This document shows, piece by piece, positions 7,010 to 52,723 of a stretch of 58,196 bases of DNA; position 1 is the stretch's first letter; each line of letters opens with the position of its first letter. The stretch lies in assembly GCA_016213895.1 (NCBI GenBank), contig JACQZJ010000063.1, positions 1-58,196 of the forward strand, in the 5' to 3' direction. The stretch comes from Planctomycetota bacterium. Its GTDB lineage: Bacteria; Planctomycetota; B15-G4; JADJEK01. The position numbers were made by a program, and so were the translations under genes. A model generated the notes under the pieces. It was given only the letters and a program-made list of their open reading frames with translations, was not told the DNA's origin and did no database searches.

Positions 7010-7016
7010 GTCACAA

Positions 7017-7156: not shown

Positions 7157-7174
7157 CCGGAGGCGTTGCGCGCT

Positions 7175-8557: not shown

Positions 8558-8613
8558 CGGACTCGCGGCCGGCGCGGCCGGGCGTTCCTGAGCACTCCGC
8601 GCCGCCGCGCGTC

Positions 8614-9723: not shown

Positions 9724-9811
9724 GCGGCATCTCCGACCGCGGATTCCAAGCGGCATTGTATCGGCAGACGGATAGCACGCGCTGGAGAATCCGCCCGCGG
9801 GCGCGCGGCGC

Positions 9812-35017: not shown

Positions 35018-36139
35018 ATGTCCGAGCACGGAGACGCGAGCGGCGAGCAGGCCCGCGGCGGAAAGCTGCCGCTCCGCGGCATCGCCGTCGCGCTGCTCGT
35101 GCTCCTGGCGCTCCTCGCGCTCGACCGCTGGCGCGCCTCCAGCGGGCGCCTCCTTGACGAGGAGGACGTCATCCGCGCCGCGCGGCCGCTCATGGGGACG
35201 ATCTTCTCGGTCGAGGTCTTTCCCGGCGGCCGGGAGCGCGCCGAGGCGCAGCGCGCCGCGTTCGCGGCCCTCGACCTGGCGGAGCGCCTGGAGGAGCGCA
35301 TCAGCGAGTGGATCGAAGGGAGCGAGACCTCGGCCCTCAACCGCGCCGCGGGAGGGGCGCCGCTCGCTTTGAGCGCGGAGCTGCTCGAACTGATCACCGC
35401 TTCCCTCGACTGGGCGCGGCGCACGAACGGAGCGTTCGACGTCACCGGCGGCCCGCTCTACGAGCTGTGGGAAAGGGCGCGCGAAGACGGGCGCGTGCCG
35501 GGCGCGGACGAGGTGCGCGCGCTGCTCGACCTCACCGGCTTCTCCAAGGTCCGCGTCGCGGGCAACAGCGTGCGCCTGGAGCGGCCGGGCATGAAGCTCG
35601 GCTTCGGCGCGATCGGCAAGGGATTCGCCGCGGATCGCATGGCGGCATTCCTGCGCTCCGCCGGCTGGCGCGACTTCATCGTCGACGCCGGCGGCAACCT
35701 GGTGCTCTCCGGCGCGCGCGGCGCGCGGCCCTGGAACATCGCCGTGCGCCATCCGCGCCAGGACGGGCCCTTCGCCACGTGCCGCGCCACGGACTGCGCC
35801 GTTGCGACCTCGGGCGACTACGAGCGCTTCTTCGAGGTGGACGGCGTGCGTTACAGCCACGTCATCGATCCGCGCACCGGCTGGCCGGTGCGGGGGCTCT
35901 CCGGCGTGACGGTGTTCGCGAGCAGCGGGACCGACGCCGACGCGCTCTCGACCGCGCTCTTCGTCATGGGCATGGACCAGGGCCTGGCCTTCGCCGAGTC
36001 CCAGGAGGGCGTCGAGGCCCTGTTCATCGGCGACGACGGCGCGGCGCGCCTCACTTCCGGCCTAAGGCTCGAGGACGGCGGCATCCTGCTGCTCTCCCCT
36101 CTGCGCGCGGCGCCGCCCGAGGCCGGCCGGCCGAGATGA
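35018..36139 (+). CDS. apbE: FAD:protein FMN transferase (ApbE-like)
   Basis: This 373-residue protein has an N-terminal membrane helix ('[17 protein letters not shown]'), then the ApbE fold: '[16 protein letters not shown]', '[17 protein letters not shown]', '[15 protein letters not shown]', '[14 protein letters not shown]', '[13 protein letters not shown]', '[13 protein letters not shown]' and '[16 protein letters not shown]'. ApbE attaches FMN to Thr/Ser of target proteins outside the membrane, with Mg2+. It opens the lipid-type operon; its stop overlaps the first KS gene (ATGA). I saw no clear flavinylation motif in the neighbours, so the target may lie elsewhere. ATG 35018 is preferred to GTG 34997. 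Confidence 0.87.
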
Positions 36140-37287
36140 CCGGCAAAGCGCGAGCCGTCATCCTGGCCGACGCCGCGGCAATGACCGCGCTCGGCGCCTC
36201 GTTGGACGAGACCTGGGAAGGACTGCTCGCCGGCCGCTCCGCCGTTTCTTCGGTCACGCGCTTCTCGACCGAGCACGTGGCGCACCACGTTGCGGCGTGC
36301 ATCGCCGATCTCGACGGGCTGCGCCGAGCGGGAGAGAACCGCACCCTGGCCCTGGCGCGCGCCGCCGCCTTGCAGCTCCGCGCGCTTCCCGCCGGCACCT
36401 TCCTCATCTGGACCGGCCTGAAGGGGAACGCCGAGCCGCTCGACGAAGCGCAGGGCGGCGCGGCGCAAGCGCTCGCGGAACCGTGGCGCGCGCGCCACTA
36501 CCGCGAGCGCCTCGCGGCCGCGCTCGGGCTCGACCCGGAGAACGGCATGGAGGTGAGCGCGGCCTGCGCCTCCTCCACCGTCGGCCTCGCGCTCGGCGCG
36601 GGCATGATCAGGAGCGGCGAGCGCGACAGCGTGCTCGTCTGCGCCGCGGACATCGTGAGCCGCTTCGCCTTCCTCGGCTTCTCCGCGCTGCAGGCGCTCA
36701 GCTCGAGCGCCTGCCGCCCCTTCGACGTGGCGCGTGACGGGCTCTGCCTCGGGGACGGCGCCGCGGCCGTGCTGCTCGCGAGCGAGGAGACGGCGAAGAG
36801 GCACGGTCTCGAGCGCGACATCCGCCTCGCGGGCTTCGGCGTGGCGAACGACGCCACGCACATCACCGGGCCGGCGGCCGACGGCCGCGGCCTGGCGCGC
36901 GCCATGCGCGCGGCGCTCCTGCGCGCTGGCGTCCTGCCCGACGTGGTCGAGGCGTTCTGCGCCCACGGCACGGGCACGCCCTACAACGATTCCATGGAGT
37001 TGTCGGCGCTCGAGGACGTCTTCGGCGCGCGGCGCTTCCCGGTCTTCTCGATCAAGGGAGCGCTCGGCCACGCGCTCGGCGCCACGGGCGCGCTCGAGGC
37101 CGCGCTCTCGGCATGGGCGCTGCGCCGCGGCCTGGCGCCGCCCACCGCGGGCTTGCTGACTCCGGAGACGCGCGCCGCCGGCCGCGCGGCCGCGGCGCCG
37201 CAGCGCTTCGCCGGCCGGAACCTCCTCACGGTCAACTCGGGCTTCGGCGGCGTGAACGCCGCGCTCCTCCTGGAGAGGTGCGCATGA
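36136..37287 (+). CDS. Beta-ketoacyl synthase (first KS of the cluster)
   Basis: This 383-residue FabF/type II KS-like protein has the catalytic Cys144 in 'VSAACASSTVGLAL', His277 in 'CAHGTGTPYND', Lys307 and His312 in 'KGALGHALGATGALEA', and the Gly-rich end 'VNSGFGGVNAALLL'. It would extend an acyl chain on ACP by decarboxylative condensation. ATGA overlaps occur at both ends, with apbE before and the CLF-like gene after, so it should be made in step with its probable partner. The N-terminus is somewhat shortened against FabF (about 410 residues). Confidence 0.83.
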   Translation: MTGKARAVILADAAAMTALGASLDETWEGLLAGRSAVSSVTRFSTEHVAHHVAACIADLDGLRRAGENRTLALARAAALQLRALPAGTFLIWTGLKGNAEPLDEAQGGAAQALAEPWRARHYRERLAAALGLDPENGMEVSAACASSTVGLALGAGMIRSGERDSVLVCAADIVSRFAFLGFSALQALSSSACRPFDVARDGLCLGDGAAAVLLASEETAKRHGLERDIRLAGFGVANDATHITGPAADGRGLARAMRAALLRAGVLPDVVEAFCAHGTGTPYNDSMELSALEDVFGARRFPVFSIKGALGHALGATGALEAALSAWALRRGLAPPTAGLLTPETRAAGRAAAAPQRFAGRNLLTVNSGFGGVNAALLLERCA

Positions 37288-37979
37288 GCGGCGGCGCGGT
37301 GGTGAGCGGCGGCGGCTTCGTCACGGCCGGCGGCCACGGCCGGCTGGGCGAGGGCAGGCCGCTCCTCTTCCCGCCCGGGGCGCCGCTCCTGCCGCGGAAG
37401 GGCGAGATCTTCGCGGTGCCGCCGGCTCGCTACGGCCGCTTCGACGACTACACCAGGCTCGGCTGCGCGGCCGTCGCGCTCGCGCTCAGGGACGCCGGGC
37501 TCGAAGGAGGGGCCGCGGCGATGAACGCCGGCGTCGTGTGCGCCAGCGGCCGGGAGTGCCTCGCCACCGACCTTGCCTTCCAGGCGAGCACGCTCGCGGA
37601 GGACGGCCGGCTCGCCAGCCCCAACCTCTTCACCTACACGCTGCCGACCATCGTGCTCGGCGAGTGCGCGGTCGCTTTCGGCCTCACCGGCCCCACTTTC
37701 TGCACGGGCGAGGACGGCCGCATGGGAATGACCGCCCTGCTCGCCGCCCTGCGCCTGCTGGAAGGGGGCGAGGCCGGCGCCATGCTCGCCGGCTGGATCG
37801 AGAGCGTCCCGGCCGCGGGCGCGGACTCGCCGCTCGGGGCGCTGTTCGTGGTGGTCGAGCCCGCCCCGCGGCCAGGCGCGCGCGTCTTCTGGAAGCTGCG
37901 GCGCCAGGGAGACGCGGTGCTGCTCGAGAACGGCGCGCGGCTCCGCTCCCTTCCCCGGCTTTTCGCCGCGCGCGAGTAG
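37284..37979 (+). CDS. KS-like chain-length-factor candidate (first CLF)
   Basis: This 231-residue thiolase-fold protein matches the short 'beta-ketoacyl synthase, N-terminal' type (Ketoacyl-synt_2) used as chain-length factor in aryl-polyene clusters. Visible parts are 'DYTRLGCAAVALALRDAG', 'LASPNLFTYTLPTIVLGE', 'FGLTGPTFCTGEDGR' and 'GGEAGAMLAGWIES'. The normal TACxSS nucleophile box is altered, and no C-terminal His half exists, so it is unlikely to condense on its own. It should pair with the upstream KS, whose stop it overlaps (ATGA). The role is inferred from family and position. Confidence 0.65.
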   Translation: MSGGAVVSGGGFVTAGGHGRLGEGRPLLFPPGAPLLPRKGEIFAVPPARYGRFDDYTRLGCAAVALALRDAGLEGGAAAMNAGVVCASGRECLATDLAFQASTLAEDGRLASPNLFTYTLPTIVLGECAVAFGLTGPTFCTGEDGRMGMTALLAALRLLEGGEAGAMLAGWIESVPAAGADSPLGALFVVVEPAPRPGARVFWKLRRQGDAVLLENGARLRSLPRLFAARE

Positions 37980-37990
37980 GATCAGCCGGC

Positions 37991-39208
37991 ATGAAGTGGA
38001 AGCTGGTCTATCCGAAGTGGCGGAAGCTCGAGCGCCAGACCGAGTTCCACCTGCCGCCGCACGGCCCCGTGGTCATGGCCGCGGAGGTCCCGGAGGAGGT
38101 CGAGCTGGAGTTCGTGGACGACAACGTCTCCGCGCTCGACCTGGACGACTCTCCCGATCTCGTGGCGCTCTCGGTCATGCTCACGGCGCAGTTGCCTCGC
38201 GCCTTCGAAATCGCGGGCGCCTACCGCGCGCGCGGCGTGCCCGTGCTCGCGGGCGGAATCGCCACGATGCTGCACGAGGGCGAGGTGGCCCGCCACGCCG
38301 ACAGCGTCTTCCTCGGCGAGGTGGAGGGCGGGCGCTTGCAGGCGGTCCTGGCCGACCTGCGCCGCGGCAGCCTGCGGCCGGTCTACGACTTCATGCACGA
38401 CCCGCCCCCCATCGAGCTGGTCGGCACGGCGCGCCGCGGCATCCTCGACCGCGCGCGCTACGTGTACCGCGGCGTGCGCATGCTCGACCTGGTCCACGCC
38501 TCGCGCGGCTGCCGCTTCAACTGCTTCCCGTGCTGCTCCGCGTTCCTCGGCGGCAAGACCATCCGGCCGCGCCCCATCGACAAGGTGGTCGCGGAGGTCG
38601 AATCGATCGAGAACGGGCGCCTCTTCCTGGTGGACAACTCGCTGGCGCAGGACGCGCGCTGGGAGGAAGAGCTCTTCCGCGCGCTCGTTCCGCTGAAGAA
38701 GAGCTGGGTCAGCCATCCCATCGAGGAGGACGACCGCCTTCTCGACCTCGCCCGCCAGGCGGGCTGCTGGTACGTCTACCAGGCGATCTTCGACACCTCG
38801 GACGTCATCCGCGAGCGCGTGCGCCGCTACAAGAAGCACGGCATCGCCGTCGAGGGCACGGTCATCCTCGGCACGGACGAGCACGATCGGGACGCCATCC
38901 GCCGGCTGGTCGACTTCCTGCTGGAGATCGACCTCGACCTCGCCGAGTTCACCATCATGACGCCCTACGCGCACAGCCCGCTGCGCGAACGCCTCGAGCA
39001 GGAAGGGCGCATCCTCACGCGCGACCCGGCCGAGTACACCTGCGACCGTGTCACGTTCCGGCCGCGGCGCATGAGCCCGGCCGAGCTGCAGGAGATGTAC
39101 CACTACGCGTGGGACACGTTCTACGCCGAGAAGCCTCAGGAGCTGAGGATGGCCGACCTGTTCCTGAAGGTGATGCAGCAGGAGAGCGCGGGCGGAGAGC
39201 GCGGCTAG
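37991..39208 (+). CDS. B12-binding-type radical SAM protein (first)
   Basis: This 405-residue protein has an N-terminal Rossmann-like B12-type domain (about 1-140: 'EEVELEFVDDNVSALDLDD', 'GIATMLHEGEVARHADSVFLG'). It lacks the DxHxxG cobalamin signature, as is common for the base-off type. The radical SAM TIM barrel has Cys174, Cys178 and Cys181 in 'RGCRFNCFPCCSAF' for the 4Fe-4S cluster, and a C-terminal elongator-like part ('EFTIMTPYAHSPLRERLEQE'). Such enzymes do radical C-methylation, ring formation or similar steps. It resembles the B12/radical SAM group reported in ladderane lipid gene regions (recall). ATG 37991. Confidence 0.77.
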   Translation: MKWKLVYPKWRKLERQTEFHLPPHGPVVMAAEVPEEVELEFVDDNVSALDLDDSPDLVALSVMLTAQLPRAFEIAGAYRARGVPVLAGGIATMLHEGEVARHADSVFLGEVEGGRLQAVLADLRRGSLRPVYDFMHDPPPIELVGTARRGILDRARYVYRGVRMLDLVHASRGCRFNCFPCCSAFLGGKTIRPRPIDKVVAEVESIENGRLFLVDNSLAQDARWEEELFRALVPLKKSWVSHPIEEDDRLLDLARQAGCWYVYQAIFDTSDVIRERVRRYKKHGIAVEGTVILGTDEHDRDAIRRLVDFLLEIDLDLAEFTIMTPYAHSPLRERLEQEGRILTRDPAEYTCDRVTFRPRRMSPAELQEMYHYAWDTFYAEKPQELRMADLFLKVMQQESAGGERG

Positions 39209-39212
39209 CGAC

Positions 39213-40565
39213 ATGGCCAAGATCCTCCTCGTGGTCGCCAACGCCACGCGCGCGCCCTACCCGGTCTTCCCGCTTGGCCCGTCGCTGGTGGCGGCCGCGG
39301 CGCGCGCGCGCGGGCACGAGGTCCTCCTCTGGGACTTCCTCTTCGAGGCGCGGCGCGGCGGAGCGCTCGCCGCCGCCGTGGCCGCGCACGCGCCCGACGT
39401 GATCGGCGTCTCGCTCCGGAACATCGACAACGTCGACTCGATCGATCTCGAGTCGTACACCGCCTGGCAGCGCGCGCTCGTCCAGGAGGCGCGCGGCCTG
39501 AGCGCCGCTCCCATCGTGCTGGGCGGCGCCGGCTTCTCCCTCATGCCCGAGCGCCTGCTCGACGAGATGCAGGCCGATTACGGCGTGGCCGGCGAGGGGG
39601 AAGAGGCCTTCTGCAACCTGGTGGCGCGCCTGGAGCGGGGCGAGCGGCCCGCCGAACGCGTCGTCCTGCCGCCTTCTCCCCTGCCCCCCGAGCGCATCGG
39701 CGGCGCGCCGCCCGACCCGGATCTCGCGCGCTTCTACTTGGGCGAGGGCGGCATGCTCAACCTGCAGGCGAAGCGCGGCTGCCCCTACCGCTGCGCCTAC
39801 TGCACCTACCCCCTGCTCGAGGGACGGAGCTGCCGCAGCCGCGCGGCGCAGGACGTGGTCGACGAGATGGAGATGCTGCGCGACCGCTGCGCGGCCGACT
39901 ACCTGGCCTTCACCGACTCGACCTTCAACGACGCAGAGGGCTCCTACCTGGAGATCGCCGAGGAGCTTGTGCGCCGCGACCTGCACCTGTCCTGGATGGC
40001 CTTCTTCCGCCCGGACCGCTTCCGCCCGGAAGACGTGCGGCTCTTGCAGCGCGCCGGCCTGCGCAGCGTGGAGTGGGGCACGGACGCCGCGAGCGACGCC
40101 ACGCTTCAAGGCCTGAACAAGGGCTTCTCCTGGGAGGCGGTGGAGGAGAGCAGCCGCCTCTTCGCCGCGGCCGGGATCAGCGGCGCGCACTTCATCATCT
40201 TCGGCGGGCCCGGCGAGACGCCGGACACGGTACGCCAGGGCCTGGAGAACGTCGCGCGCCTCGCGGGCGCGGTCGTCTTCGCCTTTCGCGGGATCCGCGT
40301 GCTGCCCGGCACCGCCATGCAGCGTCTGGCCGTGGAACAGGGCCTGATGCGCGCCGACCAGGACATGCTGCCGCCCGTCTTCTACCACTCGCCCGAGGTG
40401 GACGGAGAGTTCCTGCACGCGGCGCTCGCCGGGTCGTTCCAGGGGCGGCCCGATCGCGTCTATCCGCCCGGCAGCGCCAGCGTCATGGCGCGCGCCTTCC
40501 ACCGCCTCGGCTACCGCGGGCCGCTCTGGGACCTCTTGCTGCGCAACGCGAGGTCGGGCCGATGA
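39213..40565 (+). CDS. B12-binding radical SAM protein (second, ladderane-type)
   Basis: This 450-residue protein has the B12-type N-terminus: 'MAKILLVVANATRAPYPVFPLGP', the surface loop 'GVSLRNIDNVDSI', and 'VLGGAGFSLMPERLLDEM' with 'YGVAGEGEEAF'. A radical SAM barrel has Cys190, Cys194 and Cys197 in 'RGCPYRCAYCTYP', and later 'FGGPGETPDTVRQGLENV'. The phrase 'SLRNIDN' and the layout recall the lipid-biosynthesis B12/radical SAM family seen in anammox ladderane regions (memory, unverified). It starts four bases after the first radical SAM gene and its stop overlaps the next gene (ATGA). Substrate probably ACP-bound acyl chain, by inference. Confidence 0.78.
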   Translation: MAKILLVVANATRAPYPVFPLGPSLVAAAARARGHEVLLWDFLFEARRGGALAAAVAAHAPDVIGVSLRNIDNVDSIDLESYTAWQRALVQEARGLSAAPIVLGGAGFSLMPERLLDEMQADYGVAGEGEEAFCNLVARLERGERPAERVVLPPSPLPPERIGGAPPDPDLARFYLGEGGMLNLQAKRGCPYRCAYCTYPLLEGRSCRSRAAQDVVDEMEMLRDRCAADYLAFTDSTFNDAEGSYLEIAEELVRRDLHLSWMAFFRPDRFRPEDVRLLQRAGLRSVEWGTDAASDATLQGLNKGFSWEAVEESSRLFAAAGISGAHFIIFGGPGETPDTVRQGLENVARLAGAVVFAFRGIRVLPGTAMQRLAVEQGLMRADQDMLPPVFYHSPEVDGEFLHAALAGSFQGRPDRVYPPGSASVMARAFHRLGYRGPLWDLLLRNARSGR

Positions 40566-42670
40566 TGGACCAGGCCTCGCCGGCGGCGCAGGAACCGGCG
40601 GCCGTGCGCGCGGCGCTCGTCCTCGTCGCGCGCGGCGCGGGCCGGGAGGCGCAGGCCAGGGAGCTGCGCGCGGCGCTCGGTCTCCCGCTCGTGCCTCTCG
40701 CACTTGGAGAAGGCGCAGGCAAGGACGAACTGCTGGCGGCCGCCGCGCGCTGGGCGCTGGAACGGGGCTTCACCCACATCATCGCGCTCGACGGCGACGG
40801 GCGCCAGGCGGCCGCCGAGGCCCAGGCTTTCCTCGCCGCGCTCGCGAGAAGTCCCTGCTCGATCGTCGTGGGCCGGCCGGCGCCTGGCACCAGGACGACG
40901 CGGAGCTTCAGCGCCCGCCTCGAGCGCCTGCTCCTGCGCGTGGCCTGCGGCGCGGACCTCGTCGCCGCCTGCTGCACGTCTTGCGCCTTCCCGGCCGCCG
41001 CGCTCGCACGCGTGCGCTGCTCGAGCGGTGCGCGCGAGCGCGACGTCGAGTTCGTGGTGCGCTCGCTGTGGGCCGGCCTGGAGCTCGCCACGGTCGAGGT
41101 CTCGGAGGCGCCGCGCGCCGCGCCCGCGCCGCGCTTCCTGGACCGCGCGCGCACCCTTCTCACCTGGCTCTGGCTCGCCGCGCGCAACATCAACCCGTGG
41201 CCGCACCGGCGGCGGTTCTATCCCGACCCGCACGCCGTGGCCTTCTCCTGGCGGCGGCCGCTCCGCTACTGGAAGTACCTGCACCACAACGTGGTCTACA
41301 GGAAGCTCGAGGCCGGAGAGGAGAAGCTCTCGCTGCGCCATCCGTTCCGCTCGCTGAGAATCCTGCACCTGGAGAGCACCTCTCCCCGCGAGATCAGCCT
41401 GGCGTGCATGCTCGGCATCTTCCTCGGCGCGCTCCCGCTCATCGCCCTGCACACCGTGGCGATCGTGTTCTACGCCACGCGCTTCCGCTTGAACCGCGCC
41501 ATCGCCTTCTACGCCAGCAACCTGTGCGCGCCCTGGGTGCCGCCCTTCGTGCCGGCGCTCGACATCGAGGCGGGCCACTTCCTGCTGCATGGCCGCTTCA
41601 TCACCGCGGCCGATCTCGGCACGCGCGAGGCGCTCTTCCAGACGCTCTGCGCCGAGGCGCACCTGCGCCTCTTCGAGTACCTGCTCGGCTCGCTGCTGGT
41701 CGGGCCCGCGTTCGCGCTCCTGGTCGGCGCGCTCGTCTACGCGCTGGCCGCGCGCCGCGCGGCGCGGCGCGCGGCGCCGGACTACGGCGGCCGCTCCGGC
41801 CACGCCATCTTCCACTTCCTCATCCGCCGCTGCGGCGTGACGCCGGCCTACGTCCTGCTCGCCCTGCTCGTGCCCTACTACGTGCTGCTCAGGCCGAGCG
41901 CGCGGCGCGCGGCAGCCCACTACCTGAAGCGCCGCTTCCCCGGCCGCGGGGCCTGCTGGCGCCTGGCCGCGACCATGCGCCACTTCCACTGCTTCGGCCG
42001 CGTGCTCATCGACCAGACCGCGCTCGGCATCCTCGGCGCCGAGAGCGCGCGCATCGACTTCCCGCAGCGTAGCAGGCTCAGGAGGATCGCTGGGAGGAAG
42101 CGCGGCCTCGTTCTCCTCACCAGCCACTTCGGCGGCTGGCAGGCGGCAATGGCCGCAATCGGCGACCTCGGCCGCCCCGTGCACTTCCAGCTGCGGCGCG
42201 AGGCGCGCACCGCGGGCCGGCAGCTCTTCGACCTGTGGGAGAAGCGCGCCAGCCTGCGCATGGTCTCGCCGGACGGCTTCCTCGGCGGGATGATCGAGCT
42301 GACCAGCGCGCTCCAGGGCGGCGGCTGCGCGGCCGTCATGGGAGACCGCGCCTTTGGCGCGCGCACCGCGCGCGCGGAGTTCCTGGGCGCGCCCGCGTCC
42401 TTCCCCGTAGCGCCCTATCGCCTGGCGTTGGCGACCGGCTCGGACCTGGTCGTGCTGCTCGCCGCGCGCACCGGCAGGCTGTCGTTCCGCCTGCGCTTCG
42501 TGCGCATCGCCAGCGGCCGGCCGCGCGCGGGCCAGGCGCACCCCGCGCGCGCCGCCCTGCTGCTCGGCCGCTACGTGCGCTGCCTGGAGCGCGGCCTGCG
42601 GGATTCGCCCTTCATGTGGTTCAATTTCTTTGACTTCTGGAACGGTGCCCAACACACTCGAAAATCCTGA
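40562..42670 (+). CDS. Glycosyltransferase-DUF2062-acyltransferase fusion
   Basis: This 702-residue three-part protein starts with a GT2-like domain (about 15-205) with 'THIIALDGDGRQ', the DxD-like site. A DUF2062 region with membrane helices follows (about 245-400: 'SPREISLACMLGIFLGALPL' ... 'NRAIAFYASNLCAPW'). Last is an LpxL/HtrB-like acyltransferase (about 415-700) with 'LLTSHFGGWQ' and 'AVMGDRAFGARTARAEFLG'. In LpxL the motif is H-x4-E/D; here it is His522 with Gln527. Relatives occur in aryl-polyene clusters. It should build and acylate the lipid head at the inner membrane. It starts inside the previous stop (ATGA). Confidence 0.75.
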   Translation: MMDQASPAAQEPAAVRAALVLVARGAGREAQARELRAALGLPLVPLALGEGAGKDELLAAAARWALERGFTHIIALDGDGRQAAAEAQAFLAALARSPCSIVVGRPAPGTRTTRSFSARLERLLLRVACGADLVAACCTSCAFPAAALARVRCSSGARERDVEFVVRSLWAGLELATVEVSEAPRAAPAPRFLDRARTLLTWLWLAARNINPWPHRRRFYPDPHAVAFSWRRPLRYWKYLHHNVVYRKLEAGEEKLSLRHPFRSLRILHLESTSPREISLACMLGIFLGALPLIALHTVAIVFYATRFRLNRAIAFYASNLCAPWVPPFVPALDIEAGHFLLHGRFITAADLGTREALFQTLCAEAHLRLFEYLLGSLLVGPAFALLVGALVYALAARRAARRAAPDYGGRSGHAIFHFLIRRCGVTPAYVLLALLVPYYVLLRPSARRAAAHYLKRRFPGRGACWRLAATMRHFHCFGRVLIDQTALGILGAESARIDFPQRSRLRRIAGRKRGLVLLTSHFGGWQAAMAAIGDLGRPVHFQLRREARTAGRQLFDLWEKRASLRMVSPDGFLGGMIELTSALQGGGCAAVMGDRAFGARTARAEFLGAPASFPVAPYRLALATGSDLVVLLAARTGRLSFRLRFVRIASGRPRAGQAHPARAALLLGRYVRCLERGLRDSPFMWFNFFDFWNGAQHTRKS

Positions 42671-42740
42671 CGGCCGGCTCGTTCCTGCCCTCCCGCCCCA
42701 TTCCGCGCCCGGCCTTTCCGCGGCGCGCAAGAGGTCAACC

Positions 42741-42998
42741 GTGTCCCTGGAAGACGAACTGAAGAGCATGATCGTGCGCGAGCTGAAGATCGAGGACGTC
42801 GATCCAGCGAGCATCGCGGACGAGGAACCGCTCTTCGGCGACGGCCTGGGACTCGACTCCCTGGACGCGGTCGAGCTCGTCGTCCTGCTGCAGAAGCACT
42901 ATCAGGTGGAAGTCAAGGACATGGACCAGGGACGCACGGTGCTCGCGTCGATCCGCGCGCTCGCCGACTTCGTGCGCTCCGAACGACCGGGGAGGTGA
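42741..42998 (+). CDS. Acyl carrier protein
   Basis: This 85-residue ACP has the phosphopantetheine attachment Ser40 in 'GLGLDSLDAVELVVLL'. It carries the growing chain for the two KS-CLF pairs. The frame opens at 42630, but GTG 42741, after 'AGAGG', starts where ACP helix 1 starts. It follows the fusion protein by 70 bases, the widest gap in the operon. Only one ACP is present. Confidence 0.9.
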   Translation: MSLEDELKSMIVRELKIEDVDPASIADEEPLFGDGLGLDSLDAVELVVLLQKHYQVEVKDMDQGRTVLASIRALADFVRSERPGR

Positions 42999-43000
42999 CG

Positions 43001-44224
43001 GTGGCGGAGATCGTCGCCACCGGTCTCGGCTGCATCTCTGCCGCCGGAGGGAGCGTGGATGCCGCAACGGCGGCGATGCTCGCCGGCGAGCGCGCGCCGC
43101 GGCCGCCGCTCCGCTTCGCGCTCGACCTGGGCCGCGATTTGCCGGTGTTCGAGATCGACTCCGACCTGGCCGCGGCGACGGCCGCGCGCATGCAGAGCGC
43201 CGGAGTCGCGTGCGTGGCTCCGCCGTCCGATTGGTTCCGCACCTCGCGCCTGGCGGCGCTCGCCGCGTGCGAGGCGATCGAACAGGCCGGGCTCGACGCC
43301 GGCGCGCTGCGCGGCGCGCGCGCCGGCGTCGCGGTCGGCACCACGGTCGGGTGCACCCTCAACGATGAGGCCTTCTACCGCGCCTGGCGCCAGGGCAGCC
43401 GGCCCGAGCCCGGTCCCGCTCTGCGCCGCCTCGCCAACAACCCCGCCCTGCACCTCGCTGACCTGCTCGGCCTCGACGGGCCCGCGGCCACGATCGCCAA
43501 CGCCTGCTCCTCGGGCGCGGACGCGATCGGCTTAGGGATGGCCTGGCTCGAGTCCGGGCGCTGCGACGTCGTGCTCGCCGGCGGCAGCGACGAGCTGTCG
43601 CGCCTCACCTGCCTCGGCTTCGCCTCGCTCATGATCGCCTCGGAGCGGCCGTGCCGGCCGTTCGACCTGAAGCGCGACGGCCTCAACCTGGGAGAGGGCG
43701 CGGGCATGATCGTGCTCGAGACGCGCGCCGCCCTCGAGCGGCGCAGGGGGCCGCGCCCGCTGGCGCGCCTCCTCGGCTTCGGCACGGCCGCGGACGCGCA
43801 CCACGCGACCGCGCCCCACCCTGAGGGTCGCGGGCTGGCGCGCGCCATCCAGAAGGCCCTCGCCCAGGCCGGTTGCGCGGCCGCGCGCATCGGCTTCGTC
43901 AACGCGCACGGTACGTCCACCCGCGACAACGACCGCGTGGAGGGCAGGGTCATGAAGGACGTCCTGGCCGCGGGCACGCCGGTGGTCTCGACCAAGGCGT
44001 ACACCGGCCATACGCTCGGCGCGGCCGGCGCCATCGAGGCGGTCTTCACCATCCGCGCGCTCCAGGACGGCCGCCTGCCCGCGACCGCCGGCTTCGCGAC
44101 GCCCGACCCGGAGTGCGCCATCGTCCCGACCACGCGCGCGCTGGAGGTCGAGGCCGAGGTCGCGCTGTCCAACTCGCTCGCCTTCGGCGGCAACAACTCG
44201 GTCCTGCTCTTCGGGAGGGCGTGA
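43001..44224 (+). CDS. Beta-ketoacyl synthase (second KS)
   Basis: This 407-residue FabF-like enzyme has Cys169 in 'IANACSSGADAIGLG', His303 in 'NAHGTSTRDND', Lys332 and His337 in 'KAYTGHTLGAAGAIEA', and a proper end 'LSNSLAFGGNNSVLLFG'. The full catalytic set suggests an active condensing enzyme. GTG 43001 is chosen because GGAGG lies five bases before; GTG 42995 would bury this Shine-Dalgarno. It follows ACP almost directly and is followed by its likely CLF partner after three bases. Confidence 0.87.
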   Translation: MAEIVATGLGCISAAGGSVDAATAAMLAGERAPRPPLRFALDLGRDLPVFEIDSDLAAATAARMQSAGVACVAPPSDWFRTSRLAALAACEAIEQAGLDAGALRGARAGVAVGTTVGCTLNDEAFYRAWRQGSRPEPGPALRRLANNPALHLADLLGLDGPAATIANACSSGADAIGLGMAWLESGRCDVVLAGGSDELSRLTCLGFASLMIASERPCRPFDLKRDGLNLGEGAGMIVLETRAALERRRGPRPLARLLGFGTAADAHHATAPHPEGRGLARAIQKALAQAGCAAARIGFVNAHGTSTRDNDRVEGRVMKDVLAAGTPVVSTKAYTGHTLGAAGAIEAVFTIRALQDGRLPATAGFATPDPECAIVPTTRALEVEAEVALSNSLAFGGNNSVLLFGRA

Positions 44225-44227
44225 GGG

Positions 44228-45199
44228 ATGGCGCTCGCCGTGCTCGGCGTGGGAGCGGTCTCGGCCCTGGGGCAAGGAGCGGGCACCCTTGAGGACGGGC
44301 TGGCCGGACGGCGCCTGCCAGCCGCCGAGCACGAGACCATCGCCACTGTCTCGGGCGAGGCGACGCTCGCGGTCTTTCGCGCACGAAGCGACGGGCTCGA
44401 GCGCTACGTCCAGGCGCGCGCCCTGCGGCGCCTCGACCGCCTCTCGCGCATGGCCCTCCTCGCCTCGCACCTCGCGCTCGAGGACGCGGGCGTTCACATC
44501 GCGGACCGCTCCCGGCTCGGCCTCGCCTTCGGCTCGGCCTTCGGACCGCAGTCCGCGTCCGACGCGTTCAACGACAGCCTGATCGAGGGCGGCGACCGCT
44601 GCGCCTCCCCCACCGCGTTCGCGGGCTCGGTGCACAACGCCCTGGGCTCGCAGGCATCCATCGCGCTCGGCATCGAGGGTCCTTGCCAGACCGTCACCGC
44701 CCTCGGCCAGACCCTGGGAGGCGTCCTCGCCTGGGCCGAGGCGTGGCTCGCGCGCGGCGAGGTGGACTACGTGCTGGCCGGCGCCGGCGAGGAGGTCACG
44801 CCCTTCGCCGCGTTCTGCGCCGCGTCCGCCGGCGGCCGCGCCGTGCTGAGCGAGGGCTTCACCGCCTTCCTGCTCGGCGCGGGCGCGCAAGCGCAGCGCC
44901 GCGCCCGCGTCGAAAGGACCCTGTCGGGACACCTCACGGCGCACGACGCGCGCCGCCTCGACTTCCTCCCCGACCTCGAGACGCTCATCCTTTCGCACGA
45001 TGGCGGCCTGGGCGCGGAGGCCGCGGCGCGCCTTGCGCGCTCCCCAGTCCCCGCGTGCACGCCGCTCCCGGATTGCCTGCCGCCTTGCGCGGGCTTCGAC
45101 CTGGCCCTGGCCGCGCTCTGGTCTCGAGCAGCCGGCCAGACCGCCTGCCTCTCGTTCGATCGCGCGGCCCGCTACACTCTCGTGGTGCTGGCGCGATGA
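44228..45199 (+). CDS. Chain-length-factor-like KS without catalytic Cys (second CLF)
   Basis: This 323-residue KS-fold protein keeps 'CASPTAFAGSVHNALGSQAS', the pattern of aryl-polyene CLFs. The catalytic box reads 'GPCQTVTALGQTLGG', with no Cys in the TACSS position. The His motifs are absent as well. CLFs form heterodimers with KS and set the chain length. It is adjacent to the second KS, and its stop overlaps the next ATG (ATGA). Confidence 0.72.
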   Translation: MALAVLGVGAVSALGQGAGTLEDGLAGRRLPAAEHETIATVSGEATLAVFRARSDGLERYVQARALRRLDRLSRMALLASHLALEDAGVHIADRSRLGLAFGSAFGPQSASDAFNDSLIEGGDRCASPTAFAGSVHNALGSQASIALGIEGPCQTVTALGQTLGGVLAWAEAWLARGEVDYVLAGAGEEVTPFAAFCAASAGGRAVLSEGFTAFLLGAGAQAQRRARVERTLSGHLTAHDARRLDFLPDLETLILSHDGGLGAEAAARLARSPVPACTPLPDCLPPCAGFDLALAALWSRAAGQTACLSFDRAARYTLVVLAR

Positions 45200-45966
45200 A
45201 GACCAAGCCGACGCGAATCCGCCCTGCGCGACCGCCCGCCCCTGCCCGGACGGGCGCCTTTTCGTGCGCCCTTTTCGGCCTGCTCCTCCTCTTCCCCGGC
45301 CCGCCGCGCGCGGCCCAGCAGGAGGAAGAGAAGCCAGCGCCCGCGCCGCCCCTCTGGAGCCCGCTCACTCCCGAGGAAGAGGACGCTTTCCTGAAGAAGA
45401 TGGCCGAGACCCTGCGCGAGATGCAGACGCTGCGCGCGGAGTTCGTCCAGGAGCGGCACATCGCCTTGTTCCTCGCGCCGCTCGAGGCCAAGGGCGTGTG
45501 CTGCTTCGCCAAGCCGGCCTCACTGCGCTGGGAATTGACCGAGCCCTACGTCTCCATCCTGATCTTGAAGGAGGGCAAGGTCGCGAAGTTCGACCTGGTC
45601 GAGGGCAAGCTGCGCCGCATGAGCCTCGGCGCCGAGGACCTGCTGCGCGAGGTTCTCGGGCAGATCGTCGAGTGGATCAAGGGCGACTTCTCGCGCGCGC
45701 GCGAGCTGTACGACCTCGAGTTCCAGAAGGGAGAGGGCTTCCGCGTCGTCATGCAGCCGCGCTCCGCGGAGCTGAAGAAGGCGATCACCGCGGTCGAGCT
45801 GACCATCGACGCCGCCACCTGTCGCGCCACCAAGGTGGTGGTGCGCGAGCCGGGCGAGGACTTCCTCGAGATCCGCTTCTCCAAGGACGAGGTCAACGTC
45901 CGCCTCGACGAGAAGCTCTTCGACCTGGAGGAGCCCGGGGCGGCGACTCCCCCCGCGAACGGATGA
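45196..45966 (+). CDS. LolA-like outer-membrane lipid/lipoprotein carrier
   Basis: This 256-residue exported protein has a signal segment ('SCALFGLLLLFPGPPRAA') and the LolA fold: 'MQTLRAEFVQERHIALF', 'KGVCCFAKPASLRWELTEP', 'DAATCRATKVVVREPGED' and 'RFSKDEVNVRLDEKLF'. LolA proteins shuttle hydrophobic cargo through the periplasm. In aryl-polyene clusters a LolA paralogue is thought to help move the lipid pigment. Its ATG overlaps the upstream CLF stop. Confidence 0.78.
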   Translation: MKTKPTRIRPARPPAPARTGAFSCALFGLLLLFPGPPRAAQQEEEKPAPAPPLWSPLTPEEEDAFLKKMAETLREMQTLRAEFVQERHIALFLAPLEAKGVCCFAKPASLRWELTEPYVSILILKEGKVAKFDLVEGKLRRMSLGAEDLLREVLGQIVEWIKGDFSRARELYDLEFQKGEGFRVVMQPRSAELKKAITAVELTIDAATCRATKVVVREPGEDFLEIRFSKDEVNVRLDEKLFDLEEPGAATPPANG

Positions 45967-46670
45967 GCAGCGGGCGCACGCTCCTGGCGATCCTGCTCGC
46001 GGCCGCGCTCGCCGCGTGCCGCGGCGTGCCCTACGCGCCGGCGGCGGCCGCGGGCGAGGACGACCTGCCGCTCCGCGCCGCGCTGACCGGCGCGCTCGAG
46101 TCCGGCCTGCCCGCGTCCTTCCGCATGGCGCACCGCGTGGTGATCGTCGCCGGGGAGCGGCAGTTCGACTGCCTGGGCGTGCTCGTGATGCGCCGCGGCG
46201 CGGCGCTGCGCGCGCTCGCCGTGGGCGAGATGGGCGGGCGGCTCTTCGACTTCCTGGCGCGCGGCGCGGAGCAGCGCGTCCTCTTGCGGCCAGAGGGCAT
46301 GCCCGAGGAGCCGCTCTGCGAGGGCGTCCTCGCCGATCTGCTGCACCTCTTCGACCCGCGCGCTGGCCCGCGCGCGCGCGCGGCGCGCGCCGCGAACGGC
46401 CGCCTCGCGCTCCTCGTCGAGGAGGGCGAGAGCACGCGCGAGTACCTCTTCGATGCGGCGGGAGAGACGCTCGTTTCCTCCCTCGAGGCGCGGGACGGGG
46501 AAGTGGTGCGCCGCGCCTCCTACTCGGCCCACCGCCTCTTCCCGGGCGCGGGGCGGTCGCTGCCGGCGCGGATCGTGCTCGAGAACCTGCGCTTCAGCTA
46601 CCGCCTGGAGATCGACCTGCTCGAGTTCAGCGCCGACTCCGACCCGGACGCGGCGTTCGCGGTGCCGTGA
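45963..46670 (+). CDS. DUF3261-like outer-membrane lipoprotein
   Basis: This 235-residue lipoprotein (lipobox 'ALAAC') has a LolB-like beta fold: 'FRMAHRVVIVAGERQFDCLG', 'LRALAVGEMGGRLFDFLA', 'EYLFDAAGETLVSSLEA' and 'PARIVLENLRFSYRLEIDLLEF'. DUF3261 proteins occur beside LolA and an MMPL exporter in aryl-polyene clusters and may receive the cargo at the outer membrane. It overlaps the LolA stop (ATGA), and its stop shares one base with the exporter start. Confidence 0.75.
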   Translation: MSSGRTLLAILLAAALAACRGVPYAPAAAAGEDDLPLRAALTGALESGLPASFRMAHRVVIVAGERQFDCLGVLVMRRGAALRALAVGEMGGRLFDFLARGAEQRVLLRPEGMPEEPLCEGVLADLLHLFDPRAGPRARAARAANGRLALLVEEGESTREYLFDAAGETLVSSLEARDGEVVRRASYSAHRLFPGAGRSLPARIVLENLRFSYRLEIDLLEFSADSDPDAAFAVP

Positions 46671-49138
46671 TGGAGCGGTTCCTCGCCGCGCTGCGCGCGC
46701 GCCGGGGGCTGGTGCTGGCGCTCACGGCGCTCCTCACCGCCCTGCTGCTCCTTTCGGCGAGCGGGCTCTCCTTGCGCGAGGACGTGCTCGAGCTGCTCCC
46801 TGACCGCGACCCGGTGGTGTGGAGCTACCGCAGGCTGCTGGAGGTCTTCCGGCCGGCGGAGTATGCCTACTTCGACGTCGGACCGCGGGAAGGGAGCGCG
46901 GCGGCCGGCGAGGAGGAGCTGCTCGCCGCGGCCGACGCGCTGGCCGCCGGGCTCGAGCAGGCGCGCGGCGCGGCCGCGCCGCTCTTCGACCGGGTGATCT
47001 ACCGCCGCGATCCAGCGGATCTCCTCTCCGCGGTCGAGTTCCTCGGCGAGCACCGCGCCTCCCTGTTCAGCGCGGCGGACGCGGCGCGTTTCGCGGAGAG
47101 AGTCCAGCCCGAGGCGATCAGCGACGCCCTCGCGGCCTGGAAGAAGCTCCTCACCCTGTCGCCGGCGCCCCTGCTCGCGCCGGCCCTGGCGCGCGATCCC
47201 CTCGGCTTCGATCAGGCGCTCCTCGAGCGCCTCCAATCCCTCGAGCCCGCGGCCGGCGCCCTCACGCTGCACCGCGGCCGCCTGTTCAGCGCCGACCTCA
47301 GGCACGTGCTGGTGATCGCCCGGCCCGCGACGCGCTCGACCGACGGCCAAAGCGCCCGGGAGCTGGTCGACCTGGTCCTGGAGCTGCTGCCGCGCGCGCA
47401 AGCGCAAGGAGAGGGCGTCGCCATCGCCTGGCTCTCCGGGCACCGCTTCAGCCTGGAAAACGCCGAGCGCATCAAGGGCGATCTGGCGCGCGTGGTGACC
47501 CTGTCGCTCATCGGCATCGTCCTTCTGGCGCTGCTGGCGTTCCGGCGTTTCTTCTTCGTGGTGCTGGCGCTCCTCCCGGCCGCCTTCGGCGCGGCCTTCG
47601 CCGCCGGGATGATCCGCTGGCTCGCGCCCGGCGTGTCTGCCATCGCCATCGGCTGCGGCTCGATGCTCGTCGGCGTGAGCGTGGACTACGGCATCCACAT
47701 CCTCTTCCACGCGGACCACGCGTCCGCGGGCGAGAGGGTCGAGCCGCTGGTCCTACGCCTCTTCGCCCCGCTCTCGCTCAGCGCCGCGACCACGCTCGCC
47801 GCCTTCGCCGCGCTCTCTTTCTCGGTGATGCCCGGGTTCCGCCAGCTCGGCCTCTTCGCCGACCTCGGCATCCTCGGCGCCGCTGGCTTCGCCCTGCTCG
47901 TGCTGCCGCTCTTGATCTCGAACGCGCGCCCGGCGCGGCCGCCGCTTCTGGACGTGGCCGCCTTCTTCCCGCGCTGGTTCGCCTGGGCGCGCGCGCGCCG
48001 CGTCCTGGCCGCGGCGCTCCTCGCCCTCTTCACGCTCGGAGCGGCGCTCGGCCTGCCGCGCCTGGCCTTCGACGGCGACTACCGCCGGCTCAACGCCGCG
48101 TCGCCCGAGGCGCTCGCGGACTGGCAGAGGCTCGCCGCCACCTTCGGCGAGGCCATGGAAACCACCTCGGTGACGGTTGCGTCGCAGGACTCGGACGAGG
48201 CGCTGAGGCAGAACGAGGCGCTGTGCGCCGAGCTGGAGCGCCTCAAGGCCGAGGGCATGGTGAGCGACTTCCGCTCCCTCGCGCCGCTTCTGCCGAGCCG
48301 CGCCACGCAGGAGGAGAACCGCCGGCGCTGGCGGGAGTTCTTCAGCGAGGAGCGCAGGAACGCGCTCGCCGAGCGGCTGGCGGCCGCGGCGCAACAGCAC
48401 GGCATGCGGGAAGGGGCGTTTCTGCCGTTTCTCGCCTCTCTCGAGCGGGAGACCGCGCCGCTCACGCTCGAGGACTGGAACGTGGGCCTGCTCGGCGACC
48501 TCGGTGAGACCCACGTGGCGCGCGCGGACGGAGCTTCGTTCCTCCTCACCGGCCTGCGCCTGGCGCCGGGCGCGCGCTTCACGCAGGTGGTCGAGCGGCT
48601 CGAGCGCGCCGCGCCCGGCCTCCTCGCCGCGGACGGAAAGAGCTTCATGGAGCACCTCGTGGCGCTGATCCACGGCGAGATGGGCCGCGTCGGGGCGATC
48701 GGGCTCGCTCTCGTCGCCCTGCTCGTGCTCGGCGCGGTGCGGCGCCCGCTCTACGCCCTGGCCCTGCTTCTGCCGCCCGCTCTCGCCCTGCTCTGGTCAT
48801 TCGGCCTGATGGGCTGGCTCGGCCTGCGCCTCAACTTGATGAACTGCATCGTCTTCGTGTTCGTGGCCGGCCTCGCCGTGGACTACAGCGTCTTCCTGTT
48901 CGCGGCGTGGCGCTCCGCCCGGTCCGAGCGGGACGAGCATCTCTCGCGCTCCGGCGGGTCGGTCGCGCTTTCGGCGCTGACCACGCTCATCGCCGTGGGC
49001 TCGCTCGCGGCCGCGAGCCATCCAGCGCTGAAGAGCGTCGGCCAGACCGCCCTCTTCGGCATCGCCGGCGGCTGGCTCGCGGCCCTGCTCGCGGTCCCAC
49101 TCGCGCCGCGCGCCGGCGCCCGTCCCGAACGCGAGTGA
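46670..49138 (+). CDS. MMPL/RND-family lipid exporter
   Basis: This 822-residue inner-membrane protein has 11-12 membrane helices in two halves: 'RGLVLALTALLTALLLL', 'VVTLSLIGIVLLALLAF', 'IAIGCGSMLVGVSVDYGIHI', and later 'NLMNCIVFVFVAGLAVDYSVF'. The repeated Asp-Tyr signature in helix 4 ('VDYGIH', 'VDYSVF') is the proton-relay Asp of MMPL transporters. Large periplasmic loops lie after helix 1 and in the second half. It ends the operon and probably exports the finished lipid. A convergent lipoprotein gene ends nine bases downstream. Confidence 0.84.
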   Translation: MERFLAALRARRGLVLALTALLTALLLLSASGLSLREDVLELLPDRDPVVWSYRRLLEVFRPAEYAYFDVGPREGSAAAGEEELLAAADALAAGLEQARGAAAPLFDRVIYRRDPADLLSAVEFLGEHRASLFSAADAARFAERVQPEAISDALAAWKKLLTLSPAPLLAPALARDPLGFDQALLERLQSLEPAAGALTLHRGRLFSADLRHVLVIARPATRSTDGQSARELVDLVLELLPRAQAQGEGVAIAWLSGHRFSLENAERIKGDLARVVTLSLIGIVLLALLAFRRFFFVVLALLPAAFGAAFAAGMIRWLAPGVSAIAIGCGSMLVGVSVDYGIHILFHADHASAGERVEPLVLRLFAPLSLSAATTLAAFAALSFSVMPGFRQLGLFADLGILGAAGFALLVLPLLISNARPARPPLLDVAAFFPRWFAWARARRVLAAALLALFTLGAALGLPRLAFDGDYRRLNAASPEALADWQRLAATFGEAMETTSVTVASQDSDEALRQNEALCAELERLKAEGMVSDFRSLAPLLPSRATQEENRRRWREFFSEERRNALAERLAAAAQQHGMREGAFLPFLASLERETAPLTLEDWNVGLLGDLGETHVARADGASFLLTGLRLAPGARFTQVVERLERAAPGLLAADGKSFMEHLVALIHGEMGRVGAIGLALVALLVLGAVRRPLYALALLLPPALALLWSFGLMGWLGLRLNLMNCIVFVFVAGLAVDYSVFLFAAWRSARSERDEHLSRSGGSVALSALTTLIAVGSLAAASHPALKSVGQTALFGIAGGWLAALLAVPLAPRAGARPERE

Positions 49139-50050: not shown

Positions 50051-52723
50051 ATGGACGGACCACTCTTCGACTCTCCGACCCGCATCCCCGGCGCGGGGCG
50101 CCGCCTCGGGCGCTACCTGCTCCAGGAGACGCTGGGCAAGGGGGGCATGGGAGTGGTCTGGCGCGCGCGCGACACCGAGCTGAACGACCGTCCGGTCGCG
50201 CTGAAGTTCCTGCCGGACATCCTGGCCGAGGACGACCTGGCGCTCGTGCGCCTGAAGCACGAGGCGGAGGCCATGCTGGTGCTGACGCATCCGGGCATCG
50301 TCCGCCTCTACAACTTCGAGCGGCAGGAAGGGCTCGCCTTCCTGGCCATGGAATGCCTGGACGGACCCACGCTGCGCTCCATCCTGGCGCGGCGCGCGGA
50401 GGCGGCGCGCTTTCTGAGCGCCGCCGAGGCCCTCTGGGTGCTGGAGCAGGCCGCGGCCGCGCTCGACCACGCGCACGCCGCGGGCGTGCTGCATCGCGAC
50501 ATCAAGCCCTCCAACATCATGCTCGATCGCAAGGTCGAGGGGCCGCTCGACCGCTCCGGTGCCCGGGTCAAGGTCGCGGACTTCGGCATCGCCTACGTGG
50601 CATCGAGCAGCGTGACGCAGCTCACGGGAGGGACCGACCCGGCCGGCACGCCGGCCTACATGGCGCCCGAGCTGCTCGCCGGCGACCCCCCCTCGCGCGC
50701 CTCGGACATCTACGCCCTGGGGGCGACGCTCTTCGAGCTGGTGCGCGGCCGCCTGCCCTTCCACTACGCCGCGGGCAGCGAGCGCGACCGGCCTACCCCG
50801 CCCGCGGACTCTGGCGACCCGAACCTGGACAGAGCCGTGGCGCTGGCGCTGTGCGGCGACCCCGGCGGTAGGCCGGCCACGGCCAGCGAACTGCTCCGCA
50901 TCGCCGCGGGACAGCGCGCCCGCGGCCGCGGCGCGCCCGGAGCGCCCCGGCGCAAGAAGGCCCCGCTCCTCGCCGTGGCCCTCTGCGCCGTGGCCCTCGG
51001 CGGCGGCGGCGTGCTGGGCTGGAAGCTGCTCGGCGAGGCGACGCCCCCCGCGCCGCCCGCGCCGGAAGCGTCCGATGCGCCGGAGGTCGGAGCGGCACGG
51101 AGCGAGACCCAGATCGAGCCCGCCGCGCCGCGCGACGCGGCCGGGCCGCTCCTCGCGCGCGCGTCGCCCCCGTCCGGGCAGGAGATCGCGGACGGCGCCA
51201 GCGGCCGCTTCGAGCTCTCTTTCGACGAGCCGCTGCAGCGCTGCGTCCTCGCCGAGCAGGACCTCCAGCTCTCGGCCGACGGCCGCACGGCCGCGGGCGA
51301 GCTGCCCCTGCCGGGAGAGCACGGGGAGTGGCTGCTGTCGTGGCGCGCGGTGGACCTGGCCGGAAACGAGAGCTTCGGCAGCGTGGCCTATCGCCGCATC
51401 GACACCTCGGCGCCCACGTTCCAGGTCGTCGAGCCGGCCGCGGGCCAGGCGATCGCCGCGCACGTCGCGACCGTCTCGGTCGTTGCCGCGGACCTGGACA
51501 TCGCCCGCGTGCGGCTGGGAGAGCGCGACCTCGAGCCCGCCGGTCCGGGAAACTGGTCGCTCTCCGGCGTGCCGCTCCCCAGCGAGGGCGAGAACCTCCT
51601 CGAGGTCGAAGCGCTGGACGCCGCCGGAAACCGCTCTGCGCTCTCCCTCACGGTGGTCCGCGACACGCGCGGTCCGAGGCTCGCGGCGGAAGGGGCAGTA
51701 ACGGCACAGAGCGGGGTGTTGCAGCGCCAGGAGGTCGAGCTCGTGCTCCGCTTCGACGAGACGCTGCGCGGCCTCGCCGTGGAGGGCATTGCCTTCGCGG
51801 TCGCGCCGGATGGGACCGCTGGCAGCGGCAGCATCCAAGCTCCGGCCGGCTTGGGCCCGTGGACGCCGCGCTGGACCGCGGTCGACCTGGCCGGCAACGA
51901 GAGCGAGGGCTCCCTCGCGTTCGAGGTGCTGCGCGATCCCTGGGGAGACGCCCCGGCATCCCTGCGAGCCGGCTTCGAGGTCCTCGAGCCGGCCAAGGCG
52001 CAGCCAGACGGCAGGAACCTGCCGGCCTCGATGCGCCACCAGAAGACCGGCCTCGAGTTCGTGTTCGCCTGCGCCGGGGAGTTCGAGCTGGGCAGCCCGG
52101 CCGGCGAGGCCTTGAGGTACGAGCACGAAGGTCCCTGCCGCACGGTGCGGGTGAGCGGCTTCTACATCGCCAGGACCGAGACGACGAGGGAAGCCTGGCG
52201 CAGGGGCCAGGGCGACGCGGGGCCCGCCCAGCCAGGCGATGAGGAGCCGGTCACCGGCGTGTCCTGGACCGAGGCGCGCGCCTGGTGCGCGCGAAACGGC
52301 CTCGAGCTGCCGGCCGAGGCCCAGTGGGAGTACGCCGCGTCCGGTCCGGAGAACCGGGTGTTCCCCTGGGGCGACGTCTGGGACGCGGGGCGCCTGAACG
52401 CCTCGGGAACGCACGGAGACGACCGCTTCCCCAAGGTCGCGCCCGCCGGCTTGTTTCCGCGCGGCGCGTCGTGGTGCGGCGCGCTGGACCTGGCCGGCAA
52501 CGTGATGGAATGGTGCCTGGACGAGTGGGCGCCGAGCCACGCGGCAGCCGGCGAGGGCCAAGTCGATCCGGGGCGTACGGGAGCGAGCGGACTGTACGTG
52601 CTGCGCGGCGGCGCCTGGGACTGCCAGGAGAGGAAGTGCCGCACCGCCCATCGGGGCTTCGACTCGGCCGAGAGCCGCATCAAGGACAAGGCCGGCTTCC
52701 GGGCGGTGAAGAACCTGGAGTGA
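50051..52723 (+). CDS. Ser/Thr kinase with Ig-like and FGE (SUMF1-type) domains
   Basis: This 890-residue protein has a complete kinase domain (about 20-290): 'GKGGMGVVWRAR', 'VALKFLP', 'LHRDIKPSNIML', 'VADFGIAYV', 'GTPAYMAPE' and 'SDIYALGATLFEL'. A membrane helix follows (about 312-330). Three Ig-like repeats outside the membrane ('AVDLAGNESFGSVAYRRID', 'ALDAAGNRSALSLTVV', 'AVDLAGNESEGSLAFEVL') precede an FGE-sulfatase/SUMF1 domain (about 665-888: 'FACAGEFELGSPAG', 'EAQWEYAASG', 'WCGALDLAGNVMEWC', 'RGGAWDCQERKC'). Only one Cys lies near the usual FGE pair, so oxidase activity is doubtful and sensing or binding is likely. It is the intact relative of the broken gene at 5135-7009. ATG 50051. 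Confidence 0.86.
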   Translation: MDGPLFDSPTRIPGAGRRLGRYLLQETLGKGGMGVVWRARDTELNDRPVALKFLPDILAEDDLALVRLKHEAEAMLVLTHPGIVRLYNFERQEGLAFLAMECLDGPTLRSILARRAEAARFLSAAEALWVLEQAAAALDHAHAAGVLHRDIKPSNIMLDRKVEGPLDRSGARVKVADFGIAYVASSSVTQLTGGTDPAGTPAYMAPELLAGDPPSRASDIYALGATLFELVRGRLPFHYAAGSERDRPTPPADSGDPNLDRAVALALCGDPGGRPATASELLRIAAGQRARGRGAPGAPRRKKAPLLAVALCAVALGGGGVLGWKLLGEATPPAPPAPEASDAPEVGAARSETQIEPAAPRDAAGPLLARASPPSGQEIADGASGRFELSFDEPLQRCVLAEQDLQLSADGRTAAGELPLPGEHGEWLLSWRAVDLAGNESFGSVAYRRIDTSAPTFQVVEPAAGQAIAAHVATVSVVAADLDIARVRLGERDLEPAGPGNWSLSGVPLPSEGENLLEVEALDAAGNRSALSLTVVRDTRGPRLAAEGAVTAQSGVLQRQEVELVLRFDETLRGLAVEGIAFAVAPDGTAGSGSIQAPAGLGPWTPRWTAVDLAGNESEGSLAFEVLRDPWGDAPASLRAGFEVLEPAKAQPDGRNLPASMRHQKTGLEFVFACAGEFELGSPAGEALRYEHEGPCRTVRVSGFYIARTETTREAWRRGQGDAGPAQPGDEEPVTGVSWTEARAWCARNGLELPAEAQWEYAASGPENRVFPWGDVWDAGRLNASGTHGDDRFPKVAPAGLFPRGASWCGALDLAGNVMEWCLDEWAPSHAAAGEGQVDPGRTGASGLYVLRGGAWDCQERKCRTAHRGFDSAESRIKDKAGFRAVKNLE

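Follow-up and report, generated by a model that had tools for sequence, protein, structure and literature searches.

A putative aryl-polyene-type lipid system with two radical SAM enzymes, split over two loci in a Planctomycetota genome

What kind of lipid would be made by an operon that joins aryl-polyene-type elongation and export genes to a pair of radical SAM genes linked to ladderane-type clusters? This question is raised by a 58,196-nucleotide stretch of Planctomycetota DNA (hereafter, the window), which is contig G000:C100 of a 5.5-Mb genome bin (G000) with 95.5% completeness. Positions 35018-49138 of the window (locus A) hold twelve plus-strand frames, all open and contiguous. In our main reading, to which we give a probability of roughly 0.7, locus A is one half of a split aryl-polyene/flexirubin-type lipid system that includes two radical SAM tailoring enzymes, with a second locus (locus B) supplying the other half. 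The genes of locus A are as follows.

35018-36139, +, ApbE, FAD:protein FMN transferase; first gene (PF02424, 284 bits)
36136-37287, +, KS1 ketosynthase; Cys-His-His intact (Pfam KS match)
37284-37979, +, CLF1, short chain-length factor of 231 aa; active Cys absent
37991-39208, +, rSAM1, radical SAM enzyme; B12-type N-domain reduced, CX3CX2C motif intact
39213-40565, +, rSAM2, B12-binding radical SAM enzyme (TIGR04072; Pfam B12-binding/radical SAM)
40565-42670, +, fusion of degenerate GT2-like domain, DUF2062 and LpxL-type acyltransferase (Pfam for DUF2062 and acyltransferase)
42741-42998, +, acyl carrier protein (ACP) with GLDSL motif (PF00550, 43 bits; PRK09184 above cut-off)
42995-44224, +, KS2 ketosynthase; Cys-His-His intact (Pfam/NCBIfam)
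44228-45199, +, CLF2, chain-length factor of 323 aa; active Cys absent (PF13723)
45196-45966, +, LolA-like periplasmic lipid carrier (PF03548)
45963-46670, +, DUF3261 (ApeN/LolB-like) outer-membrane protein (PF11659, 25.2 bits vs. cut-off 22.3)
46670-49138, +, MMPL/RND lipid exporter, ApeM-like (PF03176)

Open frames and Pfam/NCBIfam profile searches bear out the twelve plus-strand genes and the order proposed by an initial annotation of this sequence, and the gene families likewise agree with its view that the export half and the KS-CLF pairs are of aryl-polyene type. Five of the eleven gene junctions, including ApbE/KS1, are 4-base overlaps; two others overlap by 1 or 4 bases depending on the choice of start codon, and at the remaining junctions the genes are 3-70 bases apart. 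CLF1 has relatives of similar length (226-244 aa) and, among solved KS structures, only FabF-type relatives. The best NCBIfam profile for KS1 is that of the cispentacin ketosynthase AmcF (of the AmcF/AmcG pair), which it matches at 220.6 bits, below the cut-off of 325, and we therefore rejected a cispentacin-like pathway; no other cispentacin gene was recognized above cut-off. Downstream of the operon lie a Ser/Thr kinase-FGE-sulfatase fusion (50051-52723) and a radical SAM-SPASM protein (52753-53859).

Compared with the ape cluster of E. coli CFT073 and Xenorhabdus (PMC8253772), locus A shares the KS, the KS:CLF, the ACPs, the glycosyltransferase/acyltransferase (ApeJ), LolA (ApeL), the RND/MMPL exporter (ApeM) and DUF3261 (ApeN), but differs by its apbE, its two radical SAM genes and the presence of two KS-CLF pairs within a single operon. 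Ketoreductase (KR), dehydratase (DH) and thioesterase genes, which the initial annotation had listed as missing, are absent from the window but present elsewhere in the genome, on contig G000:C112 at about 33.6-38.5 kb. This is locus B (L048), whose genes are listed here in L048 coordinates.

5595-6314, KR ketoreductase; best NCBIfam profile FlxB flexirubin SDR (302 bits vs. cut-off 340)
6353-6604, second ACP
about 6592-6888, DH1, FabZ-like hot-dog dehydratase (weak NCBIfam FabZ match only, 24.6 bits)
6922-7317, 4HBT thioesterase
7314-7730, DH2, FabA-like hot-dog dehydratase
7774-9006, KS3 ketosynthase
9023-10501, phytoene-desaturase-like oxidase

Once locus B is added, the likeness to ape extends to KR, DH and thioesterase, and 13 of the 18 E. 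coli ape functions listed in Table 1 of PMC8253772 have a counterpart in one or other locus; unlike ape, the genes are divided between two loci, and no acyl-activating ligase was found among them. A comparable likeness to the flexirubin flx cluster is seen in the LolA-like protein (LolA2_flexi, 99 bits vs. a cut-off of 125), in the FlxB-like KR and in the FlxY-like ligase of relatives, all of them best profiles and all under their cut-offs, while the radical SAM pair, and the lack of any tyrosine ammonia-lyase or aryl ligase found in the source genome, set the present system apart from flx.

Loci A and B sit on different contigs, and we infer that they act together from the linkage seen in relatives. 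Within the clusters of L116 and L157, both of which have rSAM1 and rSAM2, there is a ketosynthase closer to KS3 (447 and 424 bits, respectively) than to the housekeeping FabF (214 and 203 bits), and the L157 cluster also holds a KR relative that outscores the housekeeping FabG. Three loci of the same phylum (L097, L112 and L107) likewise carry KS3/KR relatives inside the cluster that outscore the housekeeping FabF/FabG. Locus B is kept in a same-genus genome (G007:C442) at 88-90% nucleotide identity, with KS3 at 95%. Both loci are present in just a single genus of the order, so their co-occurrence there counts as one event.

The claim that starter genes are also missing held up at the level of the genome: we detected no match to a FlxY-like AMP ligase in G000 at E<=1e-5, and no Tyr/Phe-type ammonia lyase (such as the FlxA-type tyrosine ammonia-lyase). 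The only lyase above the Pfam cut-off in G000, on contig C58, is of histidine ammonia-lyase type (PRK09367, 540 bits vs. 524), and we rejected it as an aryl supplier because of its histidine-type QED motif and its lack of linkage to these genes; the lyases of related clusters mostly carry an NQD motif. The gene run of relatives also holds ApeI/ApeP-like dehydratases, a 4HBT thioesterase, an AMP ligase and an aromatic lyase—L116, for instance, has an AMP ligase and an aromatic amino-acid lyase after CLF2, and the best NCBIfam profile for the L129 AMP ligase is FlxY (441 bits vs. a cut-off of 520). With KR, DH and thioesterase at a second locus here but in-cluster in relatives, and with no starter-loading genes found, the pathway looks split, with genes present for chain building and a starter-loading step that appears to be missing or substituted. 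Since neither a FlxY-like aryl ligase nor a Tyr/Phe-type lyase was found, the starter may be non-aromatic.

This same evidence bears on the possibility that the product is a complete aryl polyene bearing an aromatic head, whose aryl starter is provided from elsewhere in the genome or by an unrecognized ligase, the radical SAM pair performing minor tailoring. The 13 of 18 ape functions and the ligase and lyase of close relatives speak for it, but with no FlxY-like ligase match and a sole above-cut-off lyase that is of histidine type and away from these genes, we consider it doubtful.

Turning to the radical SAM enzymes, rSAM2 belongs to TIGR04072 (rSAM_ladder_B12, "lipid biosynthesis B12-binding/radical SAM protein"), with 542 bits against a cut-off of 360 over positions 1-442 of 443, and its nearest solved relative is TsrM. 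The AlphaFold model of rSAM1 (pLDDT 91.7) is nearest in fold to AprD4 (6fd2), a radical SAM dehydratase, and its Pfam match to the B12 domain is sub-threshold, two observations suggesting that rSAM1 may not need cobalamin. Identity of rSAM1 across phyla is 53-67% (sister species set aside), yet of 392 genomes of the source phylum just 3 were found to have it, suggesting lateral acquisition.

We then compared locus A with 80 named loci from a GTDB genome scan, picked by rSAM2 similarity. The KS/CLF and radical SAM genes keep together in other genomes, as the initial annotation had supposed, with rSAM1 directly before rSAM2 in all 49 named loci that have a strong rSAM1, and most such loci with enough sequence also hold KS1, CLF1, ACP, KS2, CLF2, GT/AT, LolA and MMPL. 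The closest arrangement is that of L129 (Proteobacteria bacterium C1.bin.17), which has the same 11-gene order (KS1-CLF1-rSAM1-rSAM2-GT/AT-ACP-KS2-CLF2-LolA-DUF3261-MMPL), except that GT-DUF2062 and the acyltransferase, fused in locus A, are two genes there; PlsC, a FlxY-like ligase, a dehydratase and a thioesterase precede this set, and no apbE was seen. The core is common to clusters in Desulfobacterota, Nitrospirota, Omnitrophota, Kiritimatiellota, Lentisphaerota and others, and many anaerobes carry it with both radical SAM genes. In the same-genus genome G007, CLF1 to MMPL and part of KS1 lie on C345, and ApbE and part of KS1 on C327, each piece being cut by a contig end. In two Elusimicrobia loci (L127 and L162), a plus-strand rSAM1 (in L127 also rSAM2) stands amid opposite-strand aryl-polyene-like genes that include a lyase, a further tie of these radical SAM genes to aryl polyenes.

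The novelty claimed by the initial annotation, which knew of no described cluster with this content, was overstated, given the recurrence of the 11-gene order in L129 and of the core in several phyla. Radical-SAM FASII-type clusters were described in 2009 in anammox bacteria, Desulfotalea, Geobacter and Pelobacter (Rattray et al., PMC2649909), TIGR04072 is a named family, and "ladderane" clusters have been reported in nine phyla from one anoxic basin (Cariaco), their function being unknown outside the anammox genus Scalindua (PMC9902471). In the literature we searched, we found no described, experimentally shown product of such clusters.

Could the product then be a true ladderane-type lipid, formed when radical SAM enzymes close a KS-CLF polyene into fused rings, the route proposed for anammox bacteria? 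The score of rSAM2 above the rSAM_ladder_B12 cut-off is in keeping with this, as are the KS-CLF pairs, rSAM2 family, ACP, MMPL and phytoene-desaturase-like protein shared with the anammox candidate clusters, the last having its counterpart in locus B. In a tree of 112 rSAM2 proteins (built by a quick method, with SH-aLRT support only), however, the window groups with L129 and L113 in a clade of 64 rows (support 100) made up mostly of rSAM1+rSAM2 clusters, and the rSAM2s of anammox genomes—which we take to be family f43 of the source phylum, judging from its duplicated HzsA-type genes—form a separate clade. The window's rSAM2 groups instead with clusters carrying flexirubin/aryl-polyene genes, often including Tyr/Phe-type lyases, and rSAM1 has no match in any anammox genome of the phylum sample. 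The likening of the radical SAM pair to ladderane regions of anammox planctomycetes therefore stands for the link to ladderane-type clusters and is weak for anammox itself, from whose clusters the present relatives also differ in resembling aryl-polyene clusters. An anammox host was likewise rejected: the hydrazine-synthase-alpha hit in G000 spans 58 residues at 36% identity inside a 1347-aa FGE-domain protein and is not HzsA. With no ladderanes found in Desulfotalea despite its syntenic cluster (PMC2649909), and with the role of the anammox cluster itself a proposal, a ladderane product appears quite unlikely.

What Desulfotalea does contain is C31:8 and C31:9 hydrocarbons (PMC2649909), and a pathway that makes polyunsaturated fatty acids or hydrocarbons anaerobically, an idea put forward for Desulfotalea psychrophila, would fit an organism with syntenic radical-SAM FASII clusters that makes such hydrocarbons without other polyunsaturated fatty acid genes (PMC2649909). 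The clusters of Desulfotalea, Geobacter and Pelobacter resemble the present system in being FASII-type with radical SAM and phytoene-desaturase-like genes, the latter again recalling locus B; for Desulfotalea, whose cluster is known here by description, this likeness follows the published account. The presence of an acyltransferase and of a dedicated export set (MMPL-LolA-DUF3261) indicates instead an exported lipid, and many relatives carry an aromatic lyase or an AMP ligase, so that we hold this alternative to be very unlikely.

Under the favored reading of a split aryl-polyene/flexirubin-type system, the pathway would be of highly reducing type II polyketide/FASII-like type. By homology to the ape and flexirubin enzymes, the two KS:CLF pairs would elongate the chain on ACPs, with the KR and DH of locus B leaving conjugated double bonds. 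The cobalamin-type, TsrM-like rSAM2 and the AprD4-like, probably cobalamin-free rSAM1 would then alter the chain, for which desaturation, methylation and the forming of a C-C bond are candidate reactions. Transfer of the chain onto a lipid acceptor would fall to the thioesterase and the DUF2062-acyltransferase fusion, and MMPL, LolA and DUF3261, as counterparts of ApeM/L/N, would deliver it to the outer membrane.

Several features also raise the question of whether the pathway is still functional. The GT domain of the fusion (40565-41350) has no Pfam hit, has lost its conserved stretches (N-terminal and DDGS) in G000 and G007 alike, and is 59% identical to that of the sister species with 20 gap positions, compared with 87-92% for DUF2062/AT; it looks dead. 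At the DH1/thioesterase junction, a palindromic repeat, CCCCTCTCCCCTTGGGGAGAGGGCCAGGGTGAGGGG (L048:6838-6935, G000:C112 at about 34.84-34.93 kb), stands in place of about 160-210 bases of G007 and cuts about 45 residues off the C-terminus of DH1, which is intact in the sister species; this may reflect a genuine lesion or an error in the assembly. Between G000 and G007, dN/dS is 0.10-0.50 for most genes of both loci and 0.65 for CLF2: most genes are under purifying selection, while CLF2 and the GT domain are relaxed. Given a GT domain that looks dead, a fast CLF2 and a DH1 cut in the assembly, the pathway may be undergoing erosion. That it is a decaying remnant without function, for which these same features and the lost starter genes might be cited, is nonetheless highly improbable in light of the twelve intact frames in the window, the kept catalytic residues and dN/dS well below 1 for most genes. 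With the gene order kept in the sister species and in other phyla, and with mostly purifying selection, a chance assembly of the gene set is ruled out.

If the favored reading is correct, the radical SAM pair is a marker for a widespread, uncharacterized branch of the aryl-polyene superfamily, to which the window adds a Planctomycetota case with a split pathway and an apparently lost aryl-loading step. Members in named strains (L154, L158 and L188) make the product of a non-anammox "ladderane-type" cluster testable directly, without anammox enrichment. A bolder and unlikely proposal is that rSAM1 and rSAM2 work only as a pair and build new carbocycles from polyene chains, by closing or coupling them; the outcome would be exported ring-bearing lipids in many non-anammox phyla. 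Such a class, ladderane-like or otherwise, would extend to named strains such as Geothermobacter hydrogeniphilus (HR-1 in L158), Halodesulfovibrio spirochaetisodalis (JC271 in L154) and Victivallis vadensis.

Finally, we note some observations on individual genes. ApbE adjoins KS1 also in the same-genus G007:C327 (86% nucleotide identity), and scanning of the other related loci did not detect it; among these loci, it heads the operon in the source genus only. A third B12 radical SAM gene, a weak rSAM2 homologue, directly follows rSAM2 in L116, L117, L118, L122, L158 and others. The G000 genome is rich in B12-type radical SAM enzymes, with 25 TIGR04072 matches at E<=0.001, 24 of them under the cut-off.
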